From the NCBI RefSeq assembly GCF_014171475.1, contig NZ_CP048817.1, positions 2,852,001-2,916,000 of the forward strand: 64,000 nucleotides of DNA. Reading direction: 5' to 3'. Every line of letters starts with the position of its first letter. Position 1 is the stretch's first letter. Position numbers and translations under genes: made by a program. The notes under the pieces are model-generated. The model saw only the letters and a list, made by a program, of their open reading frames with translations. It was not told the origin of the DNA and did not search any database. This document shows positions 593 through 34,539 of this stretch, piece after piece. This DNA comes from Sphingomonas sp. So64.6b (GTDB lineage Bacteria > Pseudomonadota > Alphaproteobacteria > Sphingomonadales > Sphingomonadaceae).

Positions 593-1252
593 ATGACGAC
601 ACGCGCACAGGGCGACCGGCCGAGCGGCCCCGAGCACTCGCTCGAACGCCTGATCTTCTTCTCCGACGCGGTGTTCGCGATCGCCATCACCTTGCTGATC
701 ATTGAGGTGCATGTTCCCCACGTGCCCTACGGATCGCCGAATCATGCCTATCTCGAGGCGCTCCTGCATCTGACACCGAACTTCTTCGGGTTCATCGTCA
801 GCTTCTTCGTGATCGGCGCGTTCTGGGCGGCGCATCACCGCATGTTCGGGCTCGCCGCGCATTATTCGGAGCGGCTGGTCGGCGCCAATCTGATGGTGCT
901 GTGCCTGATCGTGTTCATGCCGTTCGCCACCGCATTCATGAGCGCCAATACCGGCGCGCTGGTGCCGTCCGCGCTTTATGCCGCGACACTGCTGCTGACC
1001 GGGCTGCTCAACCGCCGGCTGATGTTCATCGTGACCTCGGCGCCGGTGGTCGCCGCCGATGTCTCGCCCGAGATGATCGCTTATGTCCGCGCGCGCAGCG
1101 GGACGGTGATCTTCGGCGCACTGTGTGCGCTGCTGATCGCGTTCATCGACCCGCGCTTCAGCCAGTTGGGGTTGCTCACCATCCCGATCTGGCAGCGGCT
1201 GTTCCTGCGCCGGGTCGACCGGCAGGTCGCGCGCAAGGCGGCGGCGGCATGA
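593..1252 (+). CDS. TMEM175/DUF1211 family membrane protein (putative K+ channel)
   Basis: 219 aa. It carries the family hallmark RLIFFSDAVFAIAITLL near residues 19-35, in which the FSD motif opens the first transmembrane helix; bacterial TMEM175 homologues form potassium channels from such repeats. Further hydrophobic helices lie at about 65-85, 100-120, 125-150 and 170-195, so it is an integral inner-membrane protein. The ATG at 593 follows a G-rich stretch. The gene is followed closely by a DUF4126 gene on the same strand, 18 bp away or 30 bp from the preferred ATG, so the two are probably cotranscribed. The ion-channel role is from family knowledge; selectivity cannot be judged here. Confidence 0.85.
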   Translation: MTTRAQGDRPSGPEHSLERLIFFSDAVFAIAITLLIIEVHVPHVPYGSPNHAYLEALLHLTPNFFGFIVSFFVIGAFWAAHHRMFGLAAHYSERLVGANLMVLCLIVFMPFATAFMSANTGALVPSALYAATLLLTGLLNRRLMFIVTSAPVVAADVSPEMIAYVRARSGTVIFGALCALLIAFIDPRFSQLGLLTIPIWQRLFLRRVDRQVARKAAAA

Positions 1253-1282
1253 GCCCGGCATGAGCTCGGCATGGGCCCCGGC

Positions 1283-1870
1283 ATGAGTATCGTCGAGATC
1301 CTCGGCGTCGCGGCGAGCGTCAGCCTGCTTGCCGGGTGGCGGCTGTATCTGTGCGTGTTCGCGGTCGGTGTGGCGATGCGCACTGGCTGGGTCGCGTTGC
1401 CGGGTCATTTGTTGCAACTCGATGTGCTGGCCAATCCCTGGGTGCTGGGTGTCGCCGGCCTGCTCGCGGTGATCGAATTCGCCGCCGACAAGGTGATGTG
1501 GATCGATAGCGCGTGGGACGCGGTGCACACGCTGGTGCGGCCGGTCGGCGGTGCACTGCTGGCGCTGGCGATCGTCGATCCGAGCAAGCCCGAATGGCAA
1601 GTTATCGCGGTACTGCTCGGCGGCGGCGCGTCGCTGCTCACGCACAGCGCCAAGGCGGGAACGCGCGCAGTGGTCAATGCCAGCCCCGAACCGGTGAGCA
1701 ATATCGTGGTATCGACCGGCGAAGATGTCGCGACCGGCGGACTGCTGGTACTCGCACTGGCCAATCCGATCGCGGCGGTGGTGATTGCGGTGGGAATATT
1801 GGGCGGCGCGATAGCGGCGCTGGTGGTACTCAGACGGATGTTGAGGAAGCTGATGCGGCGGGCATCCTGA
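1283..1870 (+). CDS. DUF4126 domain membrane protein
   Basis: About 195 aa from the ATG at 1283 (MSIVEILG); an ATG at 1271 is also open. The protein is hydrophobic almost throughout, with some five membrane helices and a glycine/alanine-rich C-terminal hairpin ending in a basic tail (RRMLRKLMRRAS). The arrangement matches the DUF4126 family, whose function is unknown. The start region is odd: a unit close to GGCATGAGC recurs about four times between 1249 and 1290, giving several candidate start codons. It probably forms an operon with the TMEM175-like gene upstream. Confidence 0.75.
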   Translation: MSIVEILGVAASVSLLAGWRLYLCVFAVGVAMRTGWVALPGHLLQLDVLANPWVLGVAGLLAVIEFAADKVMWIDSAWDAVHTLVRPVGGALLALAIVDPSKPEWQVIAVLLGGGASLLTHSAKAGTRAVVNASPEPVSNIVVSTGEDVATGGLLVLALANPIAAVVIAVGILGGAIAALVVLRRMLRKLMRRAS

Positions 1871-11496: not shown

Positions 11497-11558
11497 GACC
11501 GCCGCGATAGCCGCAGTTAAACGGCGTTTGAATCTAGCGGCGCGATGAAGAGCAAGGG

Positions 11559-11587
11559 AGATATGAAACACCTCTTGTGTCGTATCT
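11559..11587. promoter_or_regulatory. Operator-like palindrome upstream of HTH copy 1 (site 1)
   Basis: Half-sites AGATATGAAACAC and TGTGTCGTATCT form an imperfect inverted repeat about 63 bp upstream of the HTH start. A near-identical site lies 50 bp further out (11609) and another precedes the second HTH copy (24270), so the site travels with the gene. Autoregulation by the HTH protein is the obvious inference. Confidence 0.5.
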
Positions 11588-11608
11588 TCGGCGCGCGGCG
11601 GGCCTGAG

Positions 11609-11637
11609 AGATATAGGACACCGCATGTGTCATTTCT
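11609..11637. promoter_or_regulatory. Operator-like palindrome upstream of HTH copy 1 (site 2)
   Basis: Half-sites AGATATAGGACAC and TGTGTCATTTCT, the same design as the site at 11559 and exactly 50 bp from it, start to start. The shared consensus across the three sites in the window is AGATATnnnACACC then TGTGT then ATCT at the far side. Confidence 0.5.
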
Positions 11638-13176: not shown

Positions 13177-13635
13177 TTAGTTGGTGCCCTGCAGCGCATG
13201 CTTCAGGTCGCGCATTTCGTCATGGCCCTGACGCACCGAGCCATAGGCGGTCTCGATCGCCGAGCGGGTTTCCGGCGACAGATCGGTATCGGCACGGGCG
13301 TCCTCGAACTTGGCCTTGATATGATCCTCGCCGCGTTCGACTTCGTTGACGATCGCCTTGTCGTCATTGCCGGTGACCGCGGCCTTGAGATTGAGGAACA
13401 TGCGATGCGCACCGGCCAGGATCGTGCCGTCATCCTCCGGGTTGCCGCCGAGGCGCGAGACTTCGCCCTGCAGCGCGGTAACGACCTGGCGGCGCTCGCC
13501 GGCGCGCGCGGTGAACATTTCGGCATAGCGGCTGTTCTCCGCATCCTTCGCCGCCTCGGTATAACCATCGACGCTGTCGAGCGTGGTGGCGATCAGGCTG
13601 TTGAGGGTGCGGATGTCGTGGCTGGTATCGGTCAT
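13177..13635 (-). CDS. DUF2383 (PA2169 family) four-helix bundle protein
   Basis: 152 aa, helical throughout, matching the ferritin-like DUF2383 family: LNSLIATTLDSVDGYTEAAK at the N-terminus, ENSRYAEMFTARAGER in helix 2, and GEDHIKAKFEDA in helix 3. Members are linked to stress or envelope physiology; the metal-binding role is not established. A 74-bp fragment of this gene is found at 24531-24604, and a sequence resembling its leader (13638-13697) occurs at 18066-18125, so parts of this locus were dispersed within the accessory region. Confidence 0.85.
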   Translation of the reverse strand: MTDTSHDIRTLNSLIATTLDSVDGYTEAAKDAENSRYAEMFTARAGERRQVVTALQGEVSRLGGNPEDDGTILAGAHRMFLNLKAAVTGNDDKAIVNEVERGEDHIKAKFEDARADTDLSPETRSAIETAYGSVRQGHDEMRDLKHALQGTN

Positions 13636-20247: not shown

Positions 20248-20248
20248 A

Positions 20249-21037
20249 ATGCCACAACCGGCGACCTTGCCCAACGATATAGAGACTTATCTAGAAAATG
20301 TTGCGCACGCACTTAACGCAGCACACAGCGGCACCCCGATTCTTTTGAAAGATATCTGCGCGTCTTTAAATATAACCGTTTTGCGCCGACAATCGGTGCC
20401 GAAGGGGAAAGCATACCTATCTTGGGATCGCACATCTTTAGAACGCCCGCAAATTCACTTACCCCTTACCCGTCACAAGACTTGGGATCGGTTCTGTGCG
20501 GCCCATGAAATCGGACATTTTTTTCTTATAGATAAGTTTGACTACATTCCCACAAGTCGAGAATCTTATTGGAAAACAGAAGAGCTCTGCGATTATTTTG
20601 CCAGATCGCTTCTAATACCAAAAGAATTGATAAAAAACGACCTGGATTTAAATACGCACGAGCAAATAATTTCCACCTGCGATCACATTTCAGAGACTGC
20701 TTATGTCCCTTGGCTACAAACGGCTAAACGTATAAGTGAAAATGTCCCAAGAGTCGCGTTATTCACTTTTAGATGGGAAGACTCTGTACTGAAAACCACG
20801 GGATCAAGCCTCAAAGGACATAAGGGAAGATTTAGAGAGCTCTCTCAAGAGACTGAAGCTTATAGGCGCATTAAATGGGTATTTGAAAGCACCGCTCCTG
20901 CAAATATCTTTTCTATCGACCTGAACGAATTTAATGGAAGCAAATTTGGTGACTTCTTAAAGAAAATCGGCGCGGGCTCCATTTCGTTTCGCGTGTCCGC
21001 AAGAAATGGCACGGCCAGAGCAGTGGCTAATATTTGA
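20249..21037 (+). CDS. ImmA/IrrE-family metallopeptidase, accessory
   Basis: 262 aa from the ATG at 20249, one base after the HD gene's stop. The zinc motif HEIGH lies in FCAAHEIGHFFLIDKFD (about residues 85-100), with a downstream EELCDYFARSLLIPKELI that matches the helix carrying the third ligand and the family's LxP motif. Members cleave repressors, e.g. ImmA of ICEBs1 and IrrE/PprI of Deinococcus, and are usually paired with an XRE repressor; none is present here. The partner is instead an HD phosphohydrolase. Low GC. Its stop is 24 bp from a truncated uvrA tail. Confidence 0.8.
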   Translation: MPQPATLPNDIETYLENVAHALNAAHSGTPILLKDICASLNITVLRRQSVPKGKAYLSWDRTSLERPQIHLPLTRHKTWDRFCAAHEIGHFFLIDKFDYIPTSRESYWKTEELCDYFARSLLIPKELIKNDLDLNTHEQIISTCDHISETAYVPWLQTAKRISENVPRVALFTFRWEDSVLKTTGSSLKGHKGRFRELSQETEAYRRIKWVFESTAPANIFSIDLNEFNGSKFGDFLKKIGAGSISFRVSARNGTARAVANI

Positions 21038-21060: not shown

Positions 21061-21480
21061 TTAATTCACTCCTCCTCCGCCACCGTCTCCACACGCACCG
21101 ACCCTTCGCCCGCGACGGCGCAAGATAGTGCCCGGTAAACGACCCTTTCGCCTTGCCACCTGCTCAGGCGTGCCTTCGGCGACGATCTCGCCGCCCTTCA
21201 CCCCGTCCTCGGGCCCAAGGTCGAGCACCCAGTCGGCGGTCTTGATGACGTCGAGGTTATTCTCGATCACCACGACCATATTCCCCTGTTCGACCAGCTG
21301 GTGCAGCAGTTCAAGCAGCTTGCGCACATCCTCGAAATGCAGGCCCGTCATCGGTTCGTCCAGGATGTAGAGCGTCTGGCCGGTCGCGCGGCGTGACAAT
21401 TCCCTGGGCGAGCTTGACGTAACCCGGGTCGGCCTCCGGCGGCGTCGCCGGGAAGCATGGCCTTGCCGGGCATAATTATT
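21061..21480 (-). pseudogene. Truncated uvrA 3' end, copy A
   Basis: Minus-strand remnant of the UvrA C-terminus: [20 protein letters not shown], then [20 protein letters not shown] and [20 protein letters not shown] are obvious matches to the resident uvrA (31474-34539). The tail is shifted by small indels; in another frame it ends [10 protein letters not shown], a normal UvrA terminus but not that of the resident gene. An internal deletion joins two CTTGAC sites near 21410. It diverges from the resident sequence, so it is more likely an acquired tail than a recent duplication. Confidence 0.85.
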
Positions 21481-21645
21481 ACTATTGCGATGATTGTTAA
21501 TATCAATATCATGGCCGAATCGCAGGCTGGATCGGGCTGATCCGCGAGGCGCGTCAATTAGGAGAGCATGTATCGAAGGCAAGGGGTCAGCCCGCTGCCT
21601 GGCTCGTTTTTGGGCTCGTTTTTGGGCTCGTTTTTGGGGGATTCG

Positions 21646-22767
21646 ATGACGCAACGCCCGGTTTCCAACCCAGCCCCGGCCAATAACCCCGCCCCGGCTT
21701 ATAACCCCGCATTATCCGGCAATCCCCAGTCCGCGACGGGACGCGCCTATCCCAACGGCAATCCCGATCTGGGCTACAACCCGCCCGGCGTCCGCAACAC
21801 CGACAGTGCGGTGCCGCTCCGTCGCGACAAGCCGGTCATCCATAATTATGCCTGCAAGGACGCGGCGCCGGGCAATCTTGCCTTTCGCTGGACCTATGGG
21901 TCCAATGTCGCCGCCAAAAATCGCGATCCGCGCGTTCAGGTGGTGCAGTATAACGAGGACAGCTTCGTCCTGCGCCAGAATGTCTGTGTGCATTGGGAAG
22001 CGCCGTTCACTTATCTGCTGTTCGGGAACAAGGGCGCGTTGCTGATCGACAGCGGCGCCACCGCCGACGCGCAGCACTATCCGTTGCGCGCGACGGTTGA
22101 CGCGATCATCACGCGCTGGGCGCAGGCGCGGGGGCGGCGCGCGGTGCCCCTGACCATCGCGCTGACGTCCGGTGAGGATGTCGCGCAGAACCAGGGGCTG
22201 GTGCAGTTTGCGGGACGGCCGGAGACGACCATCGTTCCGAAGCCGCTGCACGTCATGAAGCGGTTCTACGGTCTCGCCAACTGGCCATCCGGCACCGGCG
22301 CGATCGACCTGGGCGACCGCGTGATCGAGGTGATCCCGACGCCGGGCACGCACCAGGACGGTGTGAGCTTCTACGACCCCTATTGCGATTTCCTGTTCAC
22401 CGGCGACCTGCTGTTCCCGGGCAAGATCAATATCGGCAATGACCGCGATTTCGTCGCGTCGCTCGAGCGCCTCAAGGCCTTTGCGGCGGACCGGCCGGTG
22501 AAGTGGTTGCTCGGCGGCCATATCGAAATGATGTTCGTGCCCGGAAAATACTATCCGCGCTTCGCGACCTACAAACCCTATGAGCGCGTGCTGGAGATGC
22601 TCCCCGCCGTGATCGACGAGGCGATCCAATATGCCCGCGACGTGCAGGGCAAGGACATGATGCTGATCCGGCCCGATTTCGCGCTCTTCAATGGGGTCAG
22701 TCCCGATCAGCGAACGCAGGTCTGGCCCGTGGGCGTGCCCAATATCAATGCCCCCCGTCCCTTCTGA
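21646..22767 (+). CDS. MBL-fold protein with degenerate metal site
   Basis: 373 aa from the ATG at 21646 (MTQRPVSN), preceded by GGGGG; the open frame runs upstream through three GSFLG repeats that are unlikely to be translated. The N-terminus is Asn/Pro/Ala-rich ([15 protein letters not shown]). The fold is recognisable: [17 protein letters not shown], then [20 protein letters not shown] and GDLLFPGKI, and late GGHIEMMF. At the expected HxHxDH site the sequence is [10 protein letters not shown], so the main metal ligands are missing. It sits just upstream of a paralogue with an intact site, suggesting a regulatory or divergent role. Confidence 0.75.
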
Positions 22768-22824
22768 CGACAACCAGCCCTTTCTGACGATAACGCGTCC
22801 TTGCTGACGATAAGGAGAGCATCC

Positions 22825-23832
22825 GTGGATCGCCGCACCTTTCTGACCTACAACGCCGCTGCCGCCGCCATCCCGCTGTCCGGTATCGGGCTTATGGGCG
22901 TTGCCGACGCGGCGTCGGCGGCCGTTCGACCGGTCGATTTCAAGAGCAATCTTCCCGCCACCGGCAGCTTCCCCGCGAAATGGGACTGCGGCTCGTCGTC
23001 CTGCATGGACAACAGTGATCCGCCGGTGCAGGTCCATTGGTATAACCCGCACACCGCGATCCTGCGGCAGAACAAGGCCTATAGCTACGAGGCGCCGTTC
23101 GCGCCGCTCTATTTCGGCAATGACCGGGTGCTGCTGCTCGACGAAGGTTTCGTGCAGTTGCGCAATGACTGGGACCTGCGCGGCGTGGTCGACCAGTGTA
23201 TCGACGACTGGTGCCGCCGCAACGGCCGTGATCCCGCCAGCCTCGAATTGCTGGTCGCGTTCAGTCACCTCCACGCCGACCATTATGCCGCGACCAACCA
23301 ATTCGCGGACCGTCCCAACACGCGCTATATGGGCCTGACCCATGAGGAGATGGTGGGCTTCTGGGGCATGACCAATTTCCCGGAAGAACGCGTGACGCTC
23401 GATCTGGGCGGCCGCGATATCCTGATCTGGGGTTCGCCCGGTCACGTCGTCTCGGAATTCGCCTATTACGACAGCTATACCCAGATCCTCTACACCGGTG
23501 ACATGTTCTATCGCGGCCGCTGCTATATCAGCTTCTGGCAACCCTGGTTCGACAGCATGAAGCGCCTGATCGACTTTTGCGACACGCATCCGGTGACGCA
23601 CGTCATGGGCTGTCATGTGGAGATCAGCAGGGGCGGTCAGGATTATGCCTATGGCATGACCTATCAGCCCGATGAGGCGCCGGTGGAGATGACCGTGCAA
23701 CAATTGCGCGAGGCATTCGCCCATGCGCAGACGATCACCGAGCCGGGCATTTACTTCACGGGAACGGTATTTCTCTGCAACCAGACACGCGGAACGACGA
23801 CGATCGACAAGAACCCGTATCGGTATGGTTGA
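22825..23832 (+). CDS. MBL-fold hydrolase, exported (Tat-like signal)
   Basis: 335 aa from the GTG at 22825, which follows AAGGAG at ideal spacing. The N-terminus DRRTFLTYNAAAAAIPLSG resembles a Tat signal. The MBL metal site is intact: AFSHLHADHYAATN, then SPGHVVSEFAYYDSY, YTGDMFYRG and a late GCHVEI. The protein shares N-terminal motif VQVHWYNPHTAILRQN and EAPFAPLYFGN with the upstream gene, so they are paralogues. Substrate is unknown. A TGACGATAA-type repeat fills the 57-bp gap. Confidence 0.78.
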   Translation: MDRRTFLTYNAAAAAIPLSGIGLMGVADAASAAVRPVDFKSNLPATGSFPAKWDCGSSSCMDNSDPPVQVHWYNPHTAILRQNKAYSYEAPFAPLYFGNDRVLLLDEGFVQLRNDWDLRGVVDQCIDDWCRRNGRDPASLELLVAFSHLHADHYAATNQFADRPNTRYMGLTHEEMVGFWGMTNFPEERVTLDLGGRDILIWGSPGHVVSEFAYYDSYTQILYTGDMFYRGRCYISFWQPWFDSMKRLIDFCDTHPVTHVMGCHVEISRGGQDYAYGMTYQPDEAPVEMTVQQLREAFAHAQTITEPGIYFTGTVFLCNQTRGTTTIDKNPYRYG

Positions 23833-23931
23833 CGCATTACTTCGCGCATGGGCTGACGCTTGCAGAATTATCATATGATTACACGTAGTTCCCGTGACAC
23901 ATGTAATCACTCCCGATTACCGATCGGGCCA

Positions 23932-24207
23932 TCAAGGGCGTGCGGCGGGGACCAGATGCACGGTCACCCCGGTTCCCGGCATCATCGTGCGCGGCAGCGT
24001 AATCCTTATCGTCACCCGGTCGCCGGCGGCGGATTTGCCGGCTCGCCTCGCCTCGGCGAACTCGGGATAGGCCGCGCACCAGCGAAAGATCGTCACGCGT
24101 GCGACGCCAAGCGCCTCAGCAAGCTCGCGATCGGTGAAGCCCCGGGCGTAGCGTTCGCGAGCCTGGCGGACATAATCGGGTTTGAAGGTCGAGGGGCGTG
24201 TTTTCAT
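23932..24207 (-). CDS. HTH protein, terminase small subunit-like (intact copy 2)
   Basis: 91 aa from the ATG at 24207. PDYVRQARERYARGFTDREL leads to EALGVARVTIFRWCAAYPEF, a helix-turn-helix as in phage terminase small subunits and resolvase-type HTH modules. Then KSAAGDRVTIRITLPRT and a short hydrophobic tail. It is an orphan here: no large terminase or capsid gene is nearby. One operator-like palindrome lies 63 bp upstream. A frameshifted copy is at 11186-11496 and a fragment at 12950-13022. Confidence 0.7.
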   Translation of the reverse strand: MKTRPSTFKPDYVRQARERYARGFTDRELAEALGVARVTIFRWCAAYPEFAEARRAGKSAAGDRVTIRITLPRTMMPGTGVTVHLVPAARP

Positions 24208-24269
24208 GTCTGCCGCGATAGCCGCGATGAAGCGGTGTTTGAATCGAGCGGCGCAATGAAGCGCGGGGG

Positions 24270-24298
24270 AGATATGGGACACCGGTTGTGTTGTATCT
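24270..24298. promoter_or_regulatory. Operator-like palindrome upstream of HTH copy 2
   Basis: Half-sites AGATATGGGACACC and GTGTTGTATCT; same layout as 11559 and 11609. Only one site is present here against two at copy 1. Confidence 0.5.
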
Positions 24299-24530
24299 TC
24301 GGCGCGCCGGGCGCCGGGGAGGCATCAGTATTTACCGTTTAATATCAACTACTTCGTCCACATATTGTGCAAAGTCCCGCGAGCGCCGCGCATTCTGCGC
24401 GTGACGATGACAGGTTGGGTTTGAGGGTTGGGTAAGCTGTCACCGTAACCCCCAATCCTGACCGACCGGACTGTGCTGATCAATCGAGAAACCTCTAGTT
24501 TAGGGGTTGTTGCACGTGTCACCGTAATAT

Positions 24531-24604
24531 TGTCGTCATTGCCGGTGACCAAGGCCTTGAGATTGAGGAACATGTGATGCGCACCGGCCAGGATCGTGCC
24601 GTCA
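24531..24604 (-). repeat. Fragment of the DUF2383 gene
   Basis: 74 bp match 13359-13432 with only a few differences; in minus frame it still reads DGTILAGAHHMFLNLKA. It is cut off on both sides and is non-functional. Confidence 0.8.
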
Positions 24605-24679
24605 ACGGGAGTTCCGCATATGCTGCGTTCTATCGGATTACCGTGACAGCGTCCGTCACGGCGAATACGATATCGTTTT

Positions 24680-25627
24680 ATGCCAAATTGGAGGCTCATC
24701 TTGTCCGACCGCCAAAGCCTCCCCACTCTTCTGTGCGGGCTGGCTGTGCTCTGCATGTTCGGTTCGGCCGCCGCGGCCAAAACCGATCTAATCGAGCCTT
24801 TTCGCGAGTTGCAGATCGATCCGGCGACGCTGACGCTCGAGAGCAAGCTTTATCACCAAGGGGATGTGGTAGTGCGCGCGTCGCTGCGGCGACCGGCAAC
24901 GACGCGGATTGAGGAAGATCGAAGGATAGACCTGAACGGCTTCACGTTAACGATCCCCAAGGACACATTGCTGACTGAGCGATCTTTCGTCCGCGCACCC
25001 AAGTCACGCTTGTTGAGCGACGCCGGTCGCTTCGGCATGCCATCGACCGGCATTCTGTTTTGCAACGCGGACCGGTTAGCGCTCGGGCCATTTTCTTCGG
25101 GCGATAATCTCAAACCGTTCAAGGGACTGGCCTGCCTTATCGATGACAATCGCGACGGCAAATTTGAAGCCGTTACGTTCATCGGGTTTTTCTCGGCACG
25201 AGAGGTTGGACCGGTTTCGTTATCGCCACTGGCTTATGAAGCGATGCCAGGCGCCATGGTACCCGATCATATCGACATGATATTCCAGCGATTCAGCGGC
25301 AATTATCTTTATCTGAAGCCAGTGCTTTATGGTAAGGATGGCAAGCAGGGCTCAATCCGCATGTACACCGACGAGCGGGTCAGCGCGCTCACAGACTATG
25401 CCGATGGTTGCCTGATTAACGCGCCAAGCGATGCGACCACACCATCAACCATTTTAGGCACCATCCTGACGGTCAAGGATGCCGATGCCGTCGCACAATC
25501 TTTTCGGGCCACGATTGCTGCACAGGCCTTTGCCAAACCTCTTACCGCGCAGGTCAGCGGCCATCAGCTGATCAGTGACTGGATACCTGAAACCCTGTCT
25601 CGGTGCGGAGACAAACAAAGACGGTGA
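24680..25627 (+). CDS. Hypothetical secreted protein
   Basis: 315 aa. A hydrophobic N-terminal segment (LPTLLCGLAVLCMFGSAAAA) around residues 14-33 looks like a Sec signal with a long polar n-region. The mature protein has three or four Cys (FCNADR, LACLIDDN, DGCLIN, LSRCGDK) and many beta-prone segments; IDDNRDGKFE resembles a calcium-binding Asp/Asn loop. No family recognised. Moderate GC, within the mosaic region. Confidence 0.6.
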   Translation: MPNWRLILSDRQSLPTLLCGLAVLCMFGSAAAAKTDLIEPFRELQIDPATLTLESKLYHQGDVVVRASLRRPATTRIEEDRRIDLNGFTLTIPKDTLLTERSFVRAPKSRLLSDAGRFGMPSTGILFCNADRLALGPFSSGDNLKPFKGLACLIDDNRDGKFEAVTFIGFFSAREVGPVSLSPLAYEAMPGAMVPDHIDMIFQRFSGNYLYLKPVLYGKDGKQGSIRMYTDERVSALTDYADGCLINAPSDATTPSTILGTILTVKDADAVAQSFRATIAAQAFAKPLTAQVSGHQLISDWIPETLSRCGDKQRR

Positions 25628-25793
25628 CCGGGGCGACCCATCGCTCGAGATAGTGGTATTGTGGCACCGCAACGAAACAGGGGCTGTTTTCACCGTAACT
25701 CGCAACTCCGCATAATTGCTAATAATCCGAAATGGTCCACACGCTGAAATCTCTCACGCCATGGGCACGAAAGGACCAAGCAGATAATCTGTC

Positions 25794-26125
25794 GCACCTG
25801 GCATGGTTGGACGACGCGGGAAAACGCCGCCGCCTATGAGGACGTCGTCCGCAACATCGTCATCCCGGGGATCGAGCGGATGAAGATCAAGGGATTCCAG
25901 CACATCGATCTCATGAAGCGCGATTGCGGGAATGAGTTCGAGTTCCAGACCATCATGTGGTTCGACAGTTTGAAGTCGATCGTCGATTTTGTCGGGGAGG
26001 ATCCCGAGCGGAGCCACGTTCCCGATCAGGCTCGCGCGGTGCTCTCGCGCTTCGATGCACGCGCAACGCATTACGACGTGATCGATCGGCGCCCACAGGG
26101 TTTGGACAACGAGAGTATCGGGTAA
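25794..26125 (+). pseudogene. Antibiotic-biosynthesis-monooxygenase-like protein lacking a proper start
   Basis: In frame, RTWHGWTTRENAAAYEDVV and then FQHIDLMKRDCGNEFEFQTI and MWFDSLKSIVDFVGEDPE match the small ferredoxin-like ABM family (about 100 aa). No ATG, GTG or TTG lies between the in-frame TGA near 25754 and the conserved RTWHG motif; an ATA stands where a start would be expected (about 25791). The first ATG (25880) is internal and would delete the first strand. Probably inactivated, unless a non-standard start is used. Confidence 0.6.
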
Positions 26126-26201
26126 GACGGCTCGTTGAACCGCGTTATCTCCCGGGTGCGGCTGGAGTGGCGCTGACCGTGCGCCATGGGGCAATCGCCG
26201 C

Positions 26202-26798
26202 TCAGCCGAGCCGATCGTACCAGGCGAAGAAGAAAGCGAGTTGCGCGAGGATCGCGAGATAGGCCAGGCCGATCTGAAAACGGCGCGCGGCGATCGCGGC
26301 GCCGAACGCGCAGGCGACGATCGAAAGCAGGGCGCGGGCGATATAGACCGGCCCGAGCGCGTGCGCATAGGCGGTCCCTTTGAGCAATGTATCGCCGATA
26401 TCGAGCGCGAAGCTCAGCGCGACCAGCCCGAAGAACCATTTGCGCCGGGAGAGGAAATAGCCGGCATATCCGTCATAATCGTCGAGATTGCCGGGGAACA
26501 GCATCGCACAGATGAGGAAATAGCAGGACGCATAGGCGAAGATGAACAGATAGCGGCCGAAGGTCCAGTCGGTGATGTGGTTGAGGCTGAATTCCCACCA
26601 CCAGTAACCGATGACCGAGAGCAAAGCCCAGATCACCCAGCCGAGATGGATCGCGCTGACCCTGGGTTTGCCGGGATGCTCGATAAAACCGGCCAGACCC
26701 TGAAGCAGGCGGCCGATGCTCAGGCCGAGGATCACGCTGATGATGACGCGGACATGCAGGAAAAGGTCGTTTGCCTGAGCGAGCGCCTGTGCCGTCAC
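26202..26798 (-). CDS. Hypothetical polytopic membrane protein
   Basis: 198 aa with about six hydrophobic helices, short loops and several aromatic residues (WALLSVIGYWWWEFSLNH). Conserved-looking polar motif GNLDDYDGYAGYFLSRRKW between helices 3 and 4. No family recognised. It would reside in the inner membrane. High GC, like core genes, and so probably original to the chromosome rather than island cargo. Confidence 0.65.
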   Translation of the reverse strand: MTAQALAQANDLFLHVRVIISVILGLSIGRLLQGLAGFIEHPGKPRVSAIHLGWVIWALLSVIGYWWWEFSLNHITDWTFGRYLFIFAYASCYFLICAMLFPGNLDDYDGYAGYFLSRRKWFFGLVALSFALDIGDTLLKGTAYAHALGPVYIARALLSIVACAFGAAIAARRFQIGLAYLAILAQLAFFFAWYDRLG

Positions 26799-27266
26799 GA
26801 TCGGATCCCCGAGCTGTTCGATGGGCCGTGAGTTGGTGATGGAGGGTGGCAGATGTGGTGGGGTCGGGCAATGGTGGGTGGCGAGGTAGTTTGGGTTGTT
26901 GCGAGCGGCGCTTTCGGAGGTGCCAGCGCGACCTGTCCGATCGCGGATGGGCGAGATGGTCGCAACCCGAGTTTAGGGGTTGTTGCACGTGGCACCGTAA
27001 CTCCAAAACCCTGGCCGTGAGATGGTCGATCGGTGGATAGACGCGGGGCGTTGTGGCGGTGCTTCCGGGTTTAGTATTGTGTCCCCGGAACTCTGGTGTC
27101 CCCGGAACCCTTTGCATCGTCGATCCGGCCCAGGTCGATTGGCATGAGCTGAATTCAACCGCCGATCGCGATTTTTGTCAATCACCGTCGGGGGCTAAGT
27201 GCACTGTCACCGTAACTCACTGTCACCGTAACTAAAGCGACTATTGCGCCTTCACCGAAATCAACA
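26799..27266. other. Non-coding border rich in short direct repeats
   Basis: Holds a 29-bp sequence (26972-27000) nearly identical to 24499-24527, a doubled GTGTCCCCGGAAC (27079-27091 and 27096-27108) and a perfect tandem 16-mer CACTGTCACCGTAACT (27202-27217 and 27218-27233). No gene is supported. It marks the left border of the HEPN island. Confidence 0.7.
27202..27233. repeat. Perfect tandem duplication of a 16-mer
   Basis: CACTGTCACCGTAACT occurs twice back to back. Related CACCGTAA cores occur at 24441, 24520, 25691 and 26993. The repeat lies just beyond the 3' end of the HEPN operon and may be an insertion footprint. Confidence 0.75.
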
Positions 27267-27923
27267 CTACTCGTCAGGCTTTCGACTAAAGTCTGCCTTT
27301 CCTTTAATTTGATAGTCCGCCAATATTTTGACTCTCCTATATATGCTGAGCAGTATCTTCAATGAAATTAGTGGATTTCTTGTACGAATATGAATATCCT
27401 CAGCGCTACTAAGGCTGAGAATCTCCGCCATCTGCTCCGCGTATTCTCTTATAAGCTGAACCTCATCTCGGGCAAGCCCAACCTCGGCCCGCTCCAGTTC
27501 AACCTTCAAAAGTTTTCTCCGCATGAGATCTGTAATAATAGCATTATAGGCTCTATTGCAGCGTTCTATTGATCCAGATACTCTATTCACTACAAAACAT
27601 AGCGCTAAAGCGTTCGATAAATAGAGAGTAAGCTCAATCCATCCCGGAGACGCATATTGGATTGAAGCAATGCGAGGCTGCTCATTCCTTGGGGTCGCAT
27701 ACTTTAGCTGGTTATAAAAATTTACCGCGCTGTAGCCGCCTTGCCATGGAAAAGCTCGAAATGCGCGTGAAACACGATCTTCCGCCTCTTCATCGAAAGA
27801 GGGAAGTATTGCATCGAGAGCAAAGTACACCTGCTCAAAAGCTCGAGGAAGTTTGTATAGATCTTTCAAAGACCATTGACCGTCTATCGGAATTCCAAAG
27901 CGTCCATAGTTTTTCGCGACCAT
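27267..27923 (-). CDS. HEPN-operon gene 3, unknown (possible membrane-associated)
   Basis: 218 aa. One moderately hydrophobic stretch (SPGWIELTLYLSNALALCFV) around residues 92-111, preceded by the motif PRIASIQYASPG, followed by two long helical, charged segments. This layout is common among uncharacterised island proteins, but I cannot name a family. It is the last gene of a three-gene minus-strand operon, 10 bp after the HEPN gene. Low GC. A role as membrane partner of the HEPN protein is inference from order and topology. Confidence 0.6.
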   Translation of the reverse strand: MVAKNYGRFGIPIDGQWSLKDLYKLPRAFEQVYFALDAILPSFDEEAEDRVSRAFRAFPWQGGYSAVNFYNQLKYATPRNEQPRIASIQYASPGWIELTLYLSNALALCFVVNRVSGSIERCNRAYNAIITDLMRRKLLKVELERAEVGLARDEVQLIREYAEQMAEILSLSSAEDIHIRTRNPLISLKILLSIYRRVKILADYQIKGKADFSRKPDE

Positions 27924-27933
27924 CTATAGAGCC

Positions 27934-28527
27934 TTATTCCATGAGTTTATACCAATCACGTACCGCAAGTTTTAATCTAATCGCTTCTTCTTCTGGCAAA
28001 AAATTACAGTGCGCGATCGGCCCTCGAACTAAGTTTAGACGGTTAACCACCCGTAATACTCTATTTCTTGTTGCATTAGAGAACATTCCGGAAAATACGT
28101 CCCAGTTCTCTTTAATTATTTCTCCAAGTTCACCGAATGTTGTATAATCTAGCAGGCGATCTGAGCGAGGAGGCAGGCCTTCAGACGCCTCTCTATCAAA
28201 ATTCTTGCGGGCGTTTTCTTTAACAAATGGCGGGACTGCGCTTTCCCACCATCCTCGACCGACTATATCAGACATTGCGCCTTCAATTAAATTGCGTATG
28301 TCATTCTCAAGAACGTAAAATAACTTATAGAATTCGCTCATTCTATCTGCGTCGGCAACGATCTGAAATTCGATTTGCTTTATATAACCCGACACTAAAG
28401 AGTCGGCTTGCGCTTCAAGTGCTCCACGCGATCCGTATATCTTCTCTGCGGCCATCACCTCGCGCAGGGAGCGCGTGATAACAGCACATTTTAGTACAAA
28501 TAATTCCAGGCTAACGCCGGTATTCAA
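27934..28527 (-). CDS. Swt1-type HEPN domain protein
   Basis: 197 aa. The C-terminal ~130 residues match the Swt1-like HEPN fold: FYKLFYVLENDIRNLIEGAM, then LLDYTTFGELGEIIKENWDV and a final VVNRLNLVRGPIAHCNFL, in which R-G-P-I-A-H gives the R-x4-H catalytic motif of HEPN ribonucleases. HEPN proteins commonly act as RNA-cleaving toxins in abortive-infection and toxin-antitoxin systems. The N-terminal ~60 residues are helical and unassigned. Overlaps the DUF5343 gene by 4 bp (translational coupling). Low GC, accessory. Confidence 0.78.
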   Translation of the reverse strand: MNTGVSLELFVLKCAVITRSLREVMAAEKIYGSRGALEAQADSLVSGYIKQIEFQIVADADRMSEFYKLFYVLENDIRNLIEGAMSDIVGRGWWESAVPPFVKENARKNFDREASEGLPPRSDRLLDYTTFGELGEIIKENWDVFSGMFSNATRNRVLRVVNRLNLVRGPIAHCNFLPEEEAIRLKLAVRDWYKLME

Positions 28528-29217
28528 CGCAACAAATTCTCTCTTAGGCTTCGGAATATCGCATTAAAAACGGAAATATTTTCCGTTTCCGGAAGGACTA
28601 TGCTTATTTGATACGAAAGTCCGAGAGATTTCAACCGGCCGACACTCTGATCTCGCTTCTTGTTATTATCGCCGTCATCCCCGTCTGCGTTATCATCATC
28701 CTCCGAAGATTCACTCGATACATCGGCAGTTATGAATCCTTTAACTGCGTCAAATGTCTGATACATTAATCGAACAATGGGGTCCGCCTTCTTGAGGCCC
28801 GTAATTTCAACAATAACATCCCTGATGGCGCTGTCGTCAGCTTTATGAATGTACTCATTGCGCTTAAAAAGTTCTCCAAACGCGTTCCGAAGTCCTTCAA
28901 AAGCAGCTTGAGATCGGCCGCTGTCCGTTTTAAACTTCGAATATAGCAAGGTGGGGGCGCCATCGGGACCAATAAACTGCATCTTTTTCAAAAATGGAGG
29001 CACCGTTCTTGCACTGCCCCCCCGACATTTTGAGAATCGTCGACATAAAATCGCTGGAGAATTTATCCGGGCGCTCAGCGGCAATAATTAGATCGAGTGC
29101 CTTTTTTACAGTCGCTGGCGCTATAGAGTAAGGAATCCCTCCTTTTATCTCCCGTCGCTCCGACTTGCCCTTATCAACAGGCGGCTGTGATGCCGCAGCT
29201 TCCCCTGAAGTTGCCAT
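28524..29217 (-). pseudogene. DUF5343 protein, frameshifted at a G7 run
   Basis: About 230 aa if restored. The first frame (start ATG 29217) reads GGIPYSIAPATVKKALDLII and DKFSSDFMSTILKMSGG. After the run of seven C on the plus strand (29017-29023) the adjacent frame continues GGSARTVPPFLKKMQFIGPD, then NEYIHKADDSAIRDVIVEIT and DPIVRLMYQTFDAVKGFI, the known DUF5343 pattern. With six G the reading is continuous (MSGGSARTV). First gene of the HEPN operon. The shift could be a sequencing error, phase variation, or decay. A Ser/Asp/Glu-rich acidic loop precedes the final strand. Confidence 0.8.
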
Positions 29218-29526
29218 TCGATCATCCCCCGAGTTCCACTCGCAATTCCACTAAATGGATGGGCGCAATGAATGAGATACTCGCCGAGGAGTCAAGCACA
29301 TTACCTGATACTCGTTAGGTTAATTATGGAGATCAATACAAGCTTCTGCGTGCCCCGTAGTGCCAGCGCAGTGTTTTCCGTCTCGCTCGAGGGAAGGTCA
29401 ACTAGCCTTCTATCCGATACTGTGCCACTGAAATCAGGATTTAGTGCACTGCCATTGCCTTCTTGAGTCATCAAAATCCTGTTATGTTCCCTCTTAATTC
29501 ATAGTATGTTTTTTCCGGAGGTAACT
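29218..29526. other. Divergent promoter region of the HEPN island
   Basis: AT-rich gap between the minus-strand DUF5343 operon and the plus-strand gene at 29527. No convincing gene. A strong ribosome-binding site (CCGGAGG) lies at its right end. No clear operator palindrome was found by eye. Confidence 0.55.
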
Positions 29527-30186
29527 ATGGCCCTTGATCGAGTGCATTTGCGCAAATTGCTCAAGCTATTCTTAATGAAAGACAATCTTCGATCCACTGC
29601 GATTCGCTCTGATGCGCGTGAGGTCATGAAAAAGCGAGATGAGGGCGCCGGGCCAGGCGGCGACTTCCACGTCCCTTTTTGGCATGACGCTAAGGCACAT
29701 GCTGCAGGTCGATCTGACTTGCGCGAAGCAACTGATATTCAGATCGAGAAAAATTGGCGGAGGAAAAATCTCTATCCGCGCTTGCGAGACGGGTTTTTGC
29801 ATTGGTGGAATGAGAAGCGGCGCTGGATTAACGAAGCAATCAGTGAACTTCCTAAGACTATAAAATCGACTTTCGGTTTTATAGAAATCGATGGAGTCGT
29901 AAAAGTCGAAAACCTCCTATCGCTGCGGTTAGGGGGCGATAAGTTTCGATATATCTACCCGTATTTTGCGGATAAACCAGCCCTTACCCCGGAAGGGGCT
30001 CGGCTGGGCCTTTGGCTAATGAGCAAAGCGTTACCGCAGTTTGATATCAAAGACATGAGAATACTTGATGTTATTCGAGGGGAATCTTTCTCCGTTGATA
30101 GATACCCGCTTAATGGCAAGGAGGAGGATCTTTTCCATCTTCGATATCGAAGCATTTTGAGAGAGTGGCGCGAACATTTCCGATAA
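29527..30186 (+). CDS. HEPN-island gene, unknown, 219 aa
   Basis: Start ATG at 29527 follows GGAGG at six bases. The N-terminal half is basic and helical (LRKLLKLFLMKDNLRSTAIR); the middle has WRRKNLYPRLRDGFLHWWNE; the C-terminal half includes FGFIEIDGVVKVENLLSLRL and the partly conserved-looking DKPALTPEGARLGLWLMSKA. No family recognised. It lies divergent from the HEPN operon and its stop codon is three bases from the stop of uvrA tail B. Low GC. It may be a regulator, antitoxin, or separate cargo of the same island. Confidence 0.6.
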   Translation: MALDRVHLRKLLKLFLMKDNLRSTAIRSDAREVMKKRDEGAGPGGDFHVPFWHDAKAHAAGRSDLREATDIQIEKNWRRKNLYPRLRDGFLHWWNEKRRWINEAISELPKTIKSTFGFIEIDGVVKVENLLSLRLGGDKFRYIYPYFADKPALTPEGARLGLWLMSKALPQFDIKDMRILDVIRGESFSVDRYPLNGKEEDLFHLRYRSILREWREHFR

Positions 30187-30189
30187 ACA

Positions 30190-30660
30190 CTACTCCGCCG
30201 CCACCCTCTCCACACCTCTGCCCTTCGCTAACAACGGCGCCAGATAATTCCCCGTAGAGCTCCCCTTCGCCTTAGCCACCTGCTCCGGCGTCCCTTCGGC
30301 AACGATCTCGCCGCCCTTCACCCCGCCCTCGGGGCCAAGGTCGAGCACCCAGTCGGCGGTCTTGATCACGTCGAGGTTATGTTCGATCACCACGACCGTA
30401 TTCTCCAGCTCGACCAGCTGGTGCAGCACCTCGAGCAGCTTGCGCACGTCCTCGAAATGCAGGCCGGTGGTCGGCTCATCCAGGATATACAAAGTCTGAC
30501 CCGTCGCGCGGCGTGACAGTTCGTTGGCGAGCTTGACGCGCTGCGCCTCGCCGCCGGACAGGGTGGTCGCCTGCTGGCCGACCTTGACGTAGCCGAGGCC
30601 GACTTCCGCCAGCATCGCCATCTTGTCGCGGATCGGCGGAACCGCCTTGAAGAATCCTAC
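30190..30660 (-). pseudogene. Truncated uvrA 3' end, copy B
   Basis: The minus strand encodes the last ~155 residues of Uvr[41 protein letters not shown] (signature motif), [20 protein letters not shown] (Walker B) and a terminus ending [10 protein letters not shown]. It is open from 30190 to about 30660 but has no Walker A or N-terminal half, and homology stops at 30655 (corresponding to about 31944 in the resident gene). The C-terminus differs from the resident one (AKESVAAE), arguing for acquisition from a related genome. Confidence 0.9.
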
Positions 30661-30680
30661 ACGGACTTCTCCAATATAAC

Positions 30681-30881
30681 CTACCAGCGGCCGCCGGACT
30701 TCTCGATCGCCGCGAGCAATGCCTTTTTGCTCGCCGTCCGGTTCTTGCCGGCATTGCGTGGCAAATCAGTCACCCCAGCCGCGCCGCGCCGCGCCGTCAG
30801 CCGTTCGACCGCATCGGCATGCGCGATGCGCGGGCCCGTCCAGTCGGGAGCGAGGTCAGTCTGTGAACGCTTCGAGGCCAT
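30681..30881 (-). CDS. Small basic protein downstream of nucleotidyltransferase-like gene
   Basis: 66 aa from the ATG at 30881 ([10 protein letters not shown]). Rich in Arg, Lys and Ala ([28 protein letters not shown]). Its start overlaps the end of the upstream gene by 26 bp, suggesting coupling. No family recognised. The overlapping order and small size would fit a toxin-antitoxin pair, but no known antitoxin motif is visible. Confidence 0.5.
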
Positions 30882-31410
30882 GATCGCCAAATGTTTCCTG
30901 CCGGATACGGCGTTCCAGATAGTCCAGATCGACATCGGGGTGAAGTCGGAACAGGGCGCGCGCCTGATCGAGCCGATCGCGCGCGGTGCCCGATGCATAT
31001 TGCCCCATGCGATCGGCGATCAGATCCTCGACCGCAATGATGGCGAAGGACTGGCCGTCGGCGACATCCTCGATCAGCAGGATATGATCGCGGTCGACAT
31101 TGCCGTCGAGCGGTACGCTGCCGACGATTTCGAAACCGAGGCGCAGTTCCGGGTGGATCCAACCGCGCGTGGACAAGCCCGGGCCGGATGGCCCCACAAA
31201 GCCATGCCGCTGCATTTCGGCCTCAAGTTCTGGCTGCACTGTCGAGCAGAGGTCGAAATCGCCGGTGGCAATCGCGCTGCCAGAATAATATTCGACCGCA
31301 CCGCCGCCGACCAGGATCGGGCGGGACAGGCCCTGACGCGCCATCGCCTCGCTGATCCGGGCGAGGAGCAGCAAGGCGGCTTCGAATTCCGGGCGGTATG
31401 GTGATTTCAT
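30856..31410 (-). CDS. Nucleotidyltransferase-like protein
   Basis: 184 aa. ILVGGGAVEYYSGSAIATGD followed by FDL resembles the Gly-rich plus D-x-D active-site motif of minimal nucleotidyltransferases (GG.A..........DFD), with a possible third acidic residue in GFEIVG or IAVEDLIADR. The C-terminal part (DRLDQARALFRLHPDVDLDY) is helical and resembles the substrate-binding half of AbiEii-like or related NTases. Members act as toxins, tRNA or antibiotic modifiers; activity here is unknown. It lies between uvrA tail B and the 3' end of the resident uvrA. Confidence 0.6.
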   Translation of the reverse strand: MKSPYRPEFEAALLLLARISEAMARQGLSRPILVGGGAVEYYSGSAIATGDFDLCSTVQPELEAEMQRHGFVGPSGPGLSTRGWIHPELRLGFEIVGSVPLDGNVDRDHILLIEDVADGQSFAIIAVEDLIADRMGQYASGTARDRLDQARALFRLHPDVDLDYLERRIRQETFGDHGLEAFTD

Positions 31411-31473
31411 TTAGTCCCCCTCACCCTTCCGCCGCTTCGCGGCTCCTTCCCTCTCCCACAGGGGAGAGGGATT
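31411..31473. repeat. REP-like element next to the uvrA 3' end
   Basis: Short GC-rich pyrimidine/purine palindromic stretch (CCTTCCCTCTCCCA / GGGGAGAGGGAT and a CCGCTTCGCGG hairpin) between the NTase gene and uvrA's stop. Same sequence style as the elements at 1871 and inside uvrA. Confidence 0.5.
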
Positions 31474-34400
31474 TTATTCCGCGGCGACGCTCTCTTTCGC
31501 GCGGCTTTTCAGCAGCGGCGCGAGATAGTGGCCGGTGAAGCTGCCCTTCGCCTTCGCCACCTGCTCCGGCGTGCCCTCGGCAACGATCTCGCCGCCCTTG
31601 ACCCCGCCCTCGGGCCCAAGGTCGAGCACCCAGTCGGCGGTCTTGATCACGTCGAGGTTGTGTTCGATCACCACCACCGTATTCCCCTGCTCGACCAGCT
31701 GGTGCAGCACCTCGAGCAGTTTGCGCACGTCCTCGAAATGCAGGCCGGTCGTGGGTTCATCCAGGATATACAAAGTCTGACCCGTGGCGCGGCGTGACAA
31801 TTCCTTGGCGAGCTTGACGCGCTGCGCCTCGCCGCCGGACAGGGTCGTCGCCTGCTGGCCGACCTTGACGTAACCGAGGCCGACCTCCGCCAGCATCGCC
31901 ATCTTGTCGCGGATCGGCGGGACCGCCTTGAAGAATTCCACCGCGTCCTCGACATTCATGTCGAGCACGTCGGCGATCGATTTGCCCTTGAACTTCACCT
32001 CCAGCGTTTCGCGATTGTAGCGTGCGCCGTGGCACACGTCGCACGTCACATAGACGTCGGGCAGGAAGTGCATCTCGATCTTGAGCAGGCCGTCGCCCTG
32101 GCATGCCTCACACCGGCCGCCCTTGACGTTGAAGCTGAAGCGGCCGGGTTTGTAGCCGCGCGCCGCGCTTTCGGGCAGGCCGGCGAACCAGTCGCGGATC
32201 TGCGTGAAGGCGCCGGTATAGGTTGCCGGGTTGGAGCGCGGGGTGCGGCCGATCGGCGACTGATCGATATCGATCACCTTGTCGAGATATTGCAGCCCGG
32301 TGACCTTGTCATGCTTGCCGGCGAGCATGCGCGCGCCGTTGAGGCTGCGCGCGGCGGCGGCGTAGAGCGTGTCGATGGTGAAGCTCGACTTGCCCGATCC
32401 CGACACGCCGGTGATGCAGGTGAAAGTGCCGAGCGGCAGGCTGGCCGTGACGCCGCGCAGATTGTTGGCGGTGGCGTTGTGCACGGTCAGTTTCTTGCCG
32501 TTGCCCTTGCGGCGCTTGTCCGGCACCGGGACTTCGCGCGTGCCGTTGAGATAGTCGGCGGTGATGCTGCCCCTGGTCGCGAGCACCTCCGCGAGCGAGC
32601 CTTGCGCGACGACTTCGCCGCCATGCACGCCGGCGCCCGGGCCCATGTCGATGACGTAATCGGCGGTGCGGATCGCGTCCTCGTCATGTTCGACGACGAG
32701 CACGGTATTGCCGAGATCGCGCAGGCGGCGCAGCGTCTTGAGCAGCATGTCGTTATCGCGCTGGTGCAAGCCGATGCTGGGTTCGTCGAGCACGTAGAGC
32801 ACGCCGGAGAGCCCTGAGCCGATCTGCGACGCGAGGCGGATGCGCTGGCTTTCGCCGCCCGACAGGGTGCCGCTGGTGCGGTTGAGGTTGAGATAGTCGA
32901 GCCCGACATTGTTGAGGAAGCCGAGCCGTTCGAGGATTTCCTTCAGGATGCGTTCGGCGATCGCGTTCTGCTGACCGGTCAGGTCGGCGGGGACATTCTG
33001 GAACCAGGTCAGCGCATCGACCACCGAAAGGCGCGTGACGCTGGAGATGTCGCGCATGCCGATCTTGACCGCCAGCGCCTCCGGCTTGAGGCGCGCGCCG
33101 TGGCACACTTCGCACGCGGCGCTGCTTTGGTATTTGCTCAGTTCCTCGCGCATCCACGCGCTTTCGGTCTGCAGCAGGCGGCGGTTGAGGTTGCCGATCA
33201 CGCCCTCGAACGGCTTCTTGACGTCGTAGGATTTGCGGCCGTCGACAAAGGTCAGCGTAACCGGACGCCCGCCGGTGCCGTGGAGGATGATCAGTTGCAC
33301 CTCGCCGGGCAATTCCTCCCATGGCGTATCGAGGCTGAAGCCGAATTCGCGCGCGAGACTGCCCAGCACCTGCATGTAATAAGGCGATGGCGGGTTGGAC
33401 TTGGCCCAGGGCACGACCGCGCCCTTCTTGATGCTGAGCGCGTGGTTGGGGACGACGAGATCCTCGTCGAACAGCATCTTTTCACCCAGGCCGTCGCACG
33501 CCGGGCATGCGCCTTGCGGGGCGTTGAAGGAGAACAGCCGCGGTTCGATCTCGGCGATGGTGAAGCCGCTGACCGGGCAAGCGAATTTCTCGCTGAACAC
33601 GATACGGTTGGCGGGGACGCCGGCGCCTTTCATCGCGCCGCCGTCGGTGGTGGCGGTTTCAGCGATGAACTTCTGCGGCGCTTCCTTGACGCGGTTCTTC
33701 TTACCCCCCTCCCCTTCAGGGGAGGGGTTGGGGGTGGGGGAGTCACTGGCGCCGGCGTTTGAGGCACTGCCCCACCCCAACCCCTCCCCTGAAGGGGAGG
33801 GGCTTAAGGAGGCGACCGTACCGTCCACCAAATCCACATAAGCCAGCCCATCGGCGAGCTTGAGCGCGGATTCGAAACTCTCCGCCAGCCGCGTCGCGAT
33901 GCCCGAACCGATCACCAGGCGGTCGACCACCACCTCGATGTCATGCTTGTATTTCTTGTCGAGCGCGGGCGCTTCGTCGATCTCGTAAATCTCGCCGTCG
34001 ATGCGCACGCGGGTGAAGCCGGCTTTCTGCCACTCGGCCAGTTCCTTGCGGTACTCACCCTTGCGGCCGCGCACCACGGGCGCGAGCAGGTAAAGCCGCG
34101 TGCCCTCCGGCAGAGTCATCACGCGGTCGACCATCTGGCTGACGGTCTGCGCGGCGATCGGCAGGCCGGTGGCGGGCGAATAGGGAATACCGACGCGCGC
34201 CCAGAGCAAGCGCATATAATCGTAGATCTCGGTCACGGTCGCAACGGTCGAGCGCGGGTTGCGGCTGGTGGTCTTTTGTTCGATCGAAATCGCGGGGCTC
34301 AGGCCCTCGATATGGTCGACGTCCGGTTTCTGCATCAGTTCGAGGAACTGGCGCGCATAGGCGCTGAGCGATTCGACGTAGCGGCGCTGACCCTCGGCAT

Positions 34401-34539
34401 AGATGGTGTCGAAGGCGAGGCTCGATTTGCCCGATCCGGACAGGCCGGTGATCACGGTGAGCGTGTCGCGCGGGATGTCGACCGACACGTTCTTGAGGTT
34501 GTGTTCGCGCGCGCCGCGGACGGAAATGTGAGTCAGCAT
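31474..34539 (-). CDS. uvrA: UvrABC system protein A (excision nuclease ATPase)
   Basis: 1021 aa from the ATG at 34539 ([20 protein letters not shown]); the open frame runs on but upstream residues are not UvrA-like. Both ABC modules are present: Walker [21 protein letters not shown], signatures [11 protein letters not shown] and [18 protein letters not shown], and Walker [12 protein letters not shown] and [11 protein letters not shown]. Zinc-finger pairs are visible ([18 protein letters not shown] and CDVCHGARY; the first finger reads CPVSG, with Ser for one Cys, as often in this class). UvrA recognises DNA damage for nucleotide excision repair. It is longer than usual because of a REP-like palindrome translated in frame (residues ~250-285). 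The left flank bears tails of other uvrA alleles. Confidence 0.97.
33706..33803. repeat. REP-like palindrome translated within uvrA
   Basis: Arms CCCCTCCCCTTCAGGGGAGG (from about 33708) and CCCCTCCCCTGAAGGGGAGG (from about 33780), about 30 nt each, separated by about 30 nt. It is in frame in uvrA and encodes [20 protein letters not shown] with following [14 protein letters not shown]. The insertion lies between the ATP-binding half's [13 protein letters not shown] and the [14 protein letters not shown] segment, a variable loop. Confidence 0.85.

Follow-up and report, generated by a model that had tools for sequence, protein, structure and literature searches.

Duplicated uvrA 3′ ends behind inserted modules at an insertion hotspot in Sphingomonas

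How does the 3′ end of a DNA-repair gene come to be present three times in one bacterial chromosome, once on the gene itself and twice behind it? The question is raised by the uvrA locus of Sphingomonas sp. So64.6b, analysed here within a stretch of 64,000 nucleotides (the window; contig NZ_CP048817.1, positions 2,852,001 to 2,916,000, forward strand) of its complete 5.06-Mb chromosome. The resident uvrA occupies positions 31474–34539 of the minus strand (NCBIfam UvrA equivalog, 1560 bits); its longest open reading frame (ORF) extends to 34845, the real start being probably at 34539. Alignment confirmed that two partial uvrA 3′ ends, reported in an earlier note made from the sequence letters and named here tails A and B, lie behind it in the same orientation. 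Tail B (30190–30660, minus strand; profile E-value 3e-135) is 93% identical to the resident gene over 424 nt. It begins at a point about 465 nt before the uvrA end, keeps an open frame and ends at the stop codon. Tail A (21067–21419, minus strand; E-value 7e-84) is 87% identical over about 305 nt, is frameshifted and ends near 21067 in TGA. It is located where the note had placed it (21061–21480), except that the homology starts at 21419 rather than at 21480. Each tail ends close to the stop of a plus-strand gene, as also described earlier: B at 3 bp from the stop of an uncharacterised gene (29506–30186) and A at about 24–30 bp from the stop of an ImmA-like gene (21037). A search of the complete genome with the last 451 nt of uvrA returned uvrA, tail A and tail B; besides two weak matches (65–76%) near 27 kb no further copy was found. 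The ORF account of the earlier note omitted the module that separates uvrA from tail B. It is composed of a gene with a predicted nucleotidyltransferase fold (NT; 30856–31410, minus strand), which adjoins the uvrA stop directly, and of an ORF of 66 amino acids (30681–30881, minus strand).

uvrA tails and DNA turnover in the genus

uvrA tails are a recurrent feature of sphingomonads. A match was obtained in 146 of 151 genus genomes, and the DNA behind uvrA was taken from 118 others besides the window and then from 20 closer ones, leaving out two contig-end pieces of genome G028 (genomes and loci are designated below by G and L numbers). Searching 2.0 Mb with a profile of 118 resident uvrA 3′ ends (E<1e-3) yielded 20 tails, distributed over 19 of 139 genomes. 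Nineteen of these come from 18 of the first 119 genomes (weakest E-value 9e-4) and one from the 20 added. All have the orientation of uvrA and lie at most 1.6 kb from its stop, with the exception of tail A (10 kb); eight are found only 8–72 bp behind the stop. No opposite-strand match below 1e-3 occurs within 1.6 kb, the sole such match being 15 kb away. The tail genomes are scattered on a tree of the uvrA body (138 rows, without the tail genome L078 whose sequence was too short), on which 18 tail rows require 18 changes. In other genera of the family, uvrA tails were detected in G672, G559, G631 and G474 among 26 NT-bearing genomes; G527, whose contig begins at that spot, was not counted.

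Such copies are rare behind other genes of the same regions. When each ORF of at least 200 amino acids in 119 loci was checked for a repeat of its last 500 nt within the 2 kb that follow it, 20 of 1,211 were positive: 12 were uvrA (at most 117 testable) and eight were among about 1,090 others. Three loci (L110, L129 and L078, from G134, G011 and G061) carry 0–120 bp behind uvrA a short motif that encodes the last UvrA residues, with a short uvrA tail 8 bp beyond it. The motif resembles a Sphingomonas repetitive extragenic palindromic element.

The DNA that follows uvrA is exchanged at an exceptional rate. Among near pairs (at least 96% identity between the two uvrA bodies) the downstream 200 nt were retained at 7 of 72 uvrA ends versus 403 of 461 other gene ends with homologous cover in the same pairs. 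Median identity in 76 near pairs, which overlap and hence are not independent, is 95% over the 150 nt leading to the YLxPLL motif, 62% in the codons after it and 32% in the next 200 nt. The uvrA 3′ end in sphingomonads thus forms the left border of a fast-turnover insertion hotspot. The proposal of the earlier note that it has served as a repeated junction for accessory DNA holds, given the tails in 19 of 139 genomes, their scatter on the tree and this turnover. Small gene families recurring behind uvrA, recognised by eye, are presumably BrnT/BrnA, ParE/RelE and the NT pair. A practical warning follows, namely that the last UvrA codons of sphingomonads vary with the neighbouring DNA. In a literature search over titles and abstract openings of open-licence papers no article on a uvrA-end hotspot in sphingomonads appeared; PMC5377504, in the portion retrieved, concerns UvrA binding and cloning primers.

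The NT module and the anatomy of the junctions

NT has no Pfam or NCBIfam match, and its sequence profile gave no match against the PDB. Its predicted structure (mean predicted local distance difference test score 75) has the toxins MenT1 and TglT as top PDB fold matches (8an5 and 6j7p; E-value 5e-5, template modelling score 0.57), with ANT(2'')-Ia enzymes nearly as good (E-value 3e-4). NT is therefore probably a nucleotidyltransferase with a MenT-like predicted fold, an assignment made with the moderate confidence of the model. The 66-amino-acid ORF, which has no Pfam match either, corresponds to a stretch conserved behind NT in 19 aligned loci.

A search for NT relatives retrieved 1,469 proteins, including ones from Sphingopyxis, Sphingobium and Sphingomonas, with no Pfam domain in any of the 120 listed; the locus points to a nucleotidyltransferase family tied to a DNA-repair gene. 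In the genus, NT is encoded directly behind uvrA for 24 of the 28 strong matches (exceptions in G061, G149, G052 and G031). In the family it is present in 28 of 298 genomes; of 26 looked up, 21 have it on the same strand as uvrA, or as a piece of that gene, and no more than 6 kb behind it. Of the 80 NT loci of the genome collection, 40 follow uvrA at a distance of up to 500 bp and 11 at up to 4.5 kb; the other 29 have no uvrA in reach, in some cases because the contig ends. NT relatives were also seen behind other conserved-looking gene ends (L217, L218, L231, L250, L276, L277, L286, L260 and L270); by eye we take the preceding genes to be grpE-like (L250, L276, L277, L286), thrS-like and M20-peptidase-like. 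Identities of NT and of uvrA are weakly correlated (r 0.24, 210 pairs): G024 and G092, for example, share 96% in uvrA but 71% in NT. NT therefore moved independently of the uvrA body.

Clear uvrA tails are found in six of the 80 NT loci, four of them in genomes already counted above. Duplication of other host-gene ends behind NT was also looked for and has no clear case in the 80 loci; the repeats noticed at L246, L261 and L291 are either of a different type or ambiguous. The position of the tails relative to the module is precise. The distance from the stop of the second ORF to the start of the tail is 1–25 bp in the window, G142, G093, G050 and G191 (about 21–25 bp for tail B). The corresponding start points in uvrA are about −465 (window), −360 (G142), −309 (G093) and then −138 and −137 (G050/G191). 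The uvrA stretch present twice measures 424 nt in the window, 279 nt at 97.5% identity in G093 and up to about 135 nt in G191.

These junctions bear on two ways of explaining the tails. If the uvrA end had simply been duplicated in tandem and genes had been gained between the copies later and independently, this would agree with the eight tails located 8–72 bp behind the stop and with the fact that most of the tails compared are local alleles (see below). Such a duplication would not account for tails that abut the module end in five NT cases, nor for the scarcity of copies behind other gene ends of the same regions, and we regard it as improbable. Alternatively, a site-specific integrase might once have been aimed at the uvrA 3′ end, its genes having since been lost and the tails being displaced native ends. 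The recurrent use of one gene end and terminal codons that vary with the neighbour are what such an enzyme would produce, but the points at which the tails start vary between about −465 and −85 with no fixed core, and the inserts of the window, where the scan was made, encode no recombinase domain in the ORFs covered. The earlier statement that no integrase is present agrees with this Pfam scan, which took in 18 ORFs of the interval from 15 to 31.4 kb of the window, though not every small one. An integrase acting on a fixed core is disfavoured by the variable tail starts, and this origin is the least probable of those considered here.

Sites that lack the insert could be recognised by comparison. 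G135 and G128 carry the NT module at the uvrA stop without a tail, versus an empty site in G086. Beyond its tail, G072 carries DNA that matches what directly follows uvrA in G002 and G130, and in G102 a single 2-kb alignment (64%) joins the tail and the DNA after it to the uvrA end of G171 and the DNA after that; in both cases the relatives show a collinear empty site. The sister species of the window strain, G046 and G234, have a single uvrA end; the comparison is in this case with other species and not with strains of the same one.

Ancestry of the tails and origin of the duplications

The earlier note proposed that each accessory cassette arrived with its own foreign uvrA tail, and had named tails nearest to the resident uvrA in a tree as a result speaking against this. 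Tail B and the resident gene form one clade (support 96/98), and tail A is nearest to G046, inside the same three-species cluster as both; a single clade of A, B and the resident gene is not rejected (approximately unbiased test, p 0.36). The ancestry comparison was extended to 13 tails of 12 genomes, each against all others, leaving out seven further short tails. The nearest sequence is the genome's own gene or that of its sister species for nine of them: the two of the window and those of G093, G191, G050, G125, G039, G073 and G059 (the latter at only 80%). A foreign origin of each tail is thus not supported, and different donors for A and B are borne out by neither the tree nor the comparison.

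It had further been stated that the C-termini encoded by A, B and the resident gene differ, which is correct, and that the tails look like those of other alleles, which is not supported. The uvrA genes of both sister species end in ..LLAKGRGRVETVAAE, and B and A end nearly so. The last ~39 nt of the resident gene differ from both sisters: its alignments with them halt at −36, while that with G227 continues past the stop to +39 (81%). Because the sisters end like B and A and the resident-sister alignments halt at −36, the tails are read from these alignments as local ends that were duplicated or displaced, and the resident terminus as the exception. G191, considered as a second clean case of a foreign terminus, was dropped since its sisters differ from one another there too.

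We lean, with moderate confidence, towards insertion at the hotspot accompanied by a long target duplication, the tail being the scar left behind the insert. The entry point of accessory modules would lie inside the last ~40 nt of uvrA or immediately after them, the cargo being the NT pair here and other small genes, short repeats or other DNA elsewhere. In a minority of events the join would also duplicate the preceding ~80–420 nt of uvrA. The upstream copy would remain on the gene, sometimes with altered last codons, and the other copy, with its stop codon, would stay as a scar on the far side of the insert. Tail B would then be the scar of the NT-module insertion, the latest insert, and tail A, at present 10 kb away, that of an earlier event, giving the order A, then B.

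Several observations weigh against this proposal. G050 and G191 have a common junction (−137/−138), and G142, G093, G050 and G191 have NTs that are closely related to one another, which together mean that there were possibly fewer events than scars. The 19 aligned NT loci include four with a tail, one with a doubtful trace and 14 with none, so that duplication is not obligatory. Stacked insertions would predict a uvrA relic directly before a displaced NT, an arrangement present in 0 of 12 family genomes; in G474 and G631 a uvrA tail is present closer to uvrA than the displaced NT. Among the 13 tails compared, four (G142, G072, G102 and G031) are too decayed or have their best match outside their own clade. 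Tail A has no firm place in the tree, and the changed terminus is clear in the window only, G093 having no close sister. Finally, the private changes of tail B are distributed 2/6/12 over first, second and third codon positions. Such partly constrained changes would fit an earlier life as a working allele elsewhere; with these small numbers they are suggestive only.

The last point also favours a different origin, since free drift would leave more first- and second-position changes than this apparent residue of purifying selection. DNA of a donor strain, bearing its own uvrA 3′ end and the cargo, may have taken the place of the resident end through homologous recombination, for example upon transformation, its far end joining illegitimately inside the recipient uvrA. 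On this view the tail would be the native allele, and the 3′ part of the resident gene would be foreign. The alignment with G227 that passes the stop, against the halt at −36 with the sisters, and the incongruence of NT with uvrA speak for such a replacement. However, the resident 3′ part is as near to G046 (92.9%) as the gene body is (93.5%) and is the sister of B, so the foreign part would have to be very short, and in five NT cases the tail follows the second ORF at 1–25 bp, which would not be expected of random donor ends. We hold replacement by donor DNA to be possible, and less likely than insertion with target duplication.

A more far-reaching idea, which we put forward tentatively and think rather unlikely, is that the NT pair constitutes a minimal selfish cassette that lacks a recombinase. 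It would dock on stop codons of housekeeping genes, foremost uvrA but also grpE-like genes and others, and be expressed by read-through from the host gene. Duplicated uvrA ends would let host recombination loop the cassette out and reinsert it in other uvrA copies, the gene end serving as its address.

Other window genes and comparison with known systems

Two cassettes further out in the window were named by the earlier note as accessory DNA added at the uvrA end. The first cassette is formed by an HD-domain gene (18301–20247, plus strand; PF01966 E-value 6e-4, under the curated cut-off) that overlaps an ImmA/IrrE-like, CapP-like peptidase gene (20198–21037, plus strand; PF06114 E-value 1e-6, capP 2e-12). 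The HD gene is nearly private to this genome, without a close relative in 240 other genus genomes; it has four weak relatives there, none shown near uvrA. The second is a candidate defence module (27267–29217, minus strand) with DUF5343 in two overlapping ORFs, HEPN_Swt1 and a C-terminal part resembling PD-T4-10_B. HEPN has relatives in eight of the 240 genomes: one beside uvrA (G074; 30% identity, about 300 bp behind the gene and convergent), six not, and one in G218 with the uvrA position unlisted. The expectation of finding these cassettes next to uvrA elsewhere was therefore not borne out, and both look like travellers that landed here. The uncharacterised gene convergent with tail B (29506–30186, plus strand) has relatives right behind uvrA-NT in G092 (72% amino acid identity at +726..1382) and G024 (60% at +719..1363).

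Several further genes, including two of the metallo-beta-lactamase fold, lie between the HEPN module and tail A. A minus-strand small ORF (23935–24282) with weak helix-turn-helix and terminase-small-subunit-like Pfam matches (E-values 5e-5 to 3e-4) may be a phage relic lying between tails A and B. Direct repeats of 31 nt (97%) at 24497–24527 and 26970–27000, 2.47 kb apart, bracket the genes at 24680–26798 and are possibly the ends of another insert. Two longer pairs (about 11307–11610 with 24017–24321, 84% over 305 nt; 13358–13432 with 24530–24604, 96% over 75 nt) tie the 24-kb region to that at 11–13 kb. Within uvrA a palindromic repeat (33697–33811; 42-nt arms, 88% complementary) is in frame and translated, and has the look of a repeat element that entered the sequence coding for UvrA.

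Genes for defence and for toxin-antitoxin systems are clustered in hotspots, and their integrase-free entry is poorly known; integrative elements target tRNA and other gene ends. Unlike integrase-borne gene-end elements, the scanned window ORFs include no tyrosine or serine recombinase and the junctions have no constant core. NT resembles the MenT/TglT toxins in its predicted fold and in a GG..TGDFD motif, which we take to be the nucleotidyltransferase signature. It differs from them in being about 15% identical, with ANT(2'')-Ia matching nearly as well. Its small partner follows NT, whereas in the MenT systems the small partner MenA precedes the toxin.

For a donor origin the known counterparts are homology-facilitated illegitimate recombination, with one homologous and one illegitimate junction (PMC3240628), and the duplications and merodiploids produced by transformation (PMC3784515); both were shown by experiment in other species. 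Mobile ORFs of fungal mitochondria duplicate the carboxy-terminal part of atp6, atp9, cox2 and nad3 (PMC3630166). As described in the part of that source retrieved, the insert-borne copy replaces the host gene end and the old end is left behind the ORF, an outcome comparable to that at uvrA, where a carboxy-terminal duplication likewise lies behind an inserted ORF. Those ORFs encode homing endonucleases, in place of the predicted nucleotidyltransferase fold found here, and unlike in mitochondria most of the duplicated stretch is here local and not foreign.

The closest precedent for the reading that we favour is provided by restriction-modification genes of Helicobacter pylori, whose insertion leaves a long duplication of the target (Nobusato et al. 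2000; PMC1643837, PMC4978471). There too a module is flanked by a long direct repeat of its target, and no transposase is named in the passages retrieved. At uvrA, a single copy of the target is present in relatives without the insert, namely in G046, G234 and the collinear sites compared with G072 and G102. The cargo of the present locus differs from the H. pylori one, as no restriction or methylase family was found among the window ORFs scanned. Judging from the same passages, the uvrA case also differs in that one gene end was hit repeatedly across a genus and the copy is a gene 3′ end. A gene end that keeps the scars of arrivals in many species renders the insertion step readable, through its junctions, the length of the duplications and the order of events.

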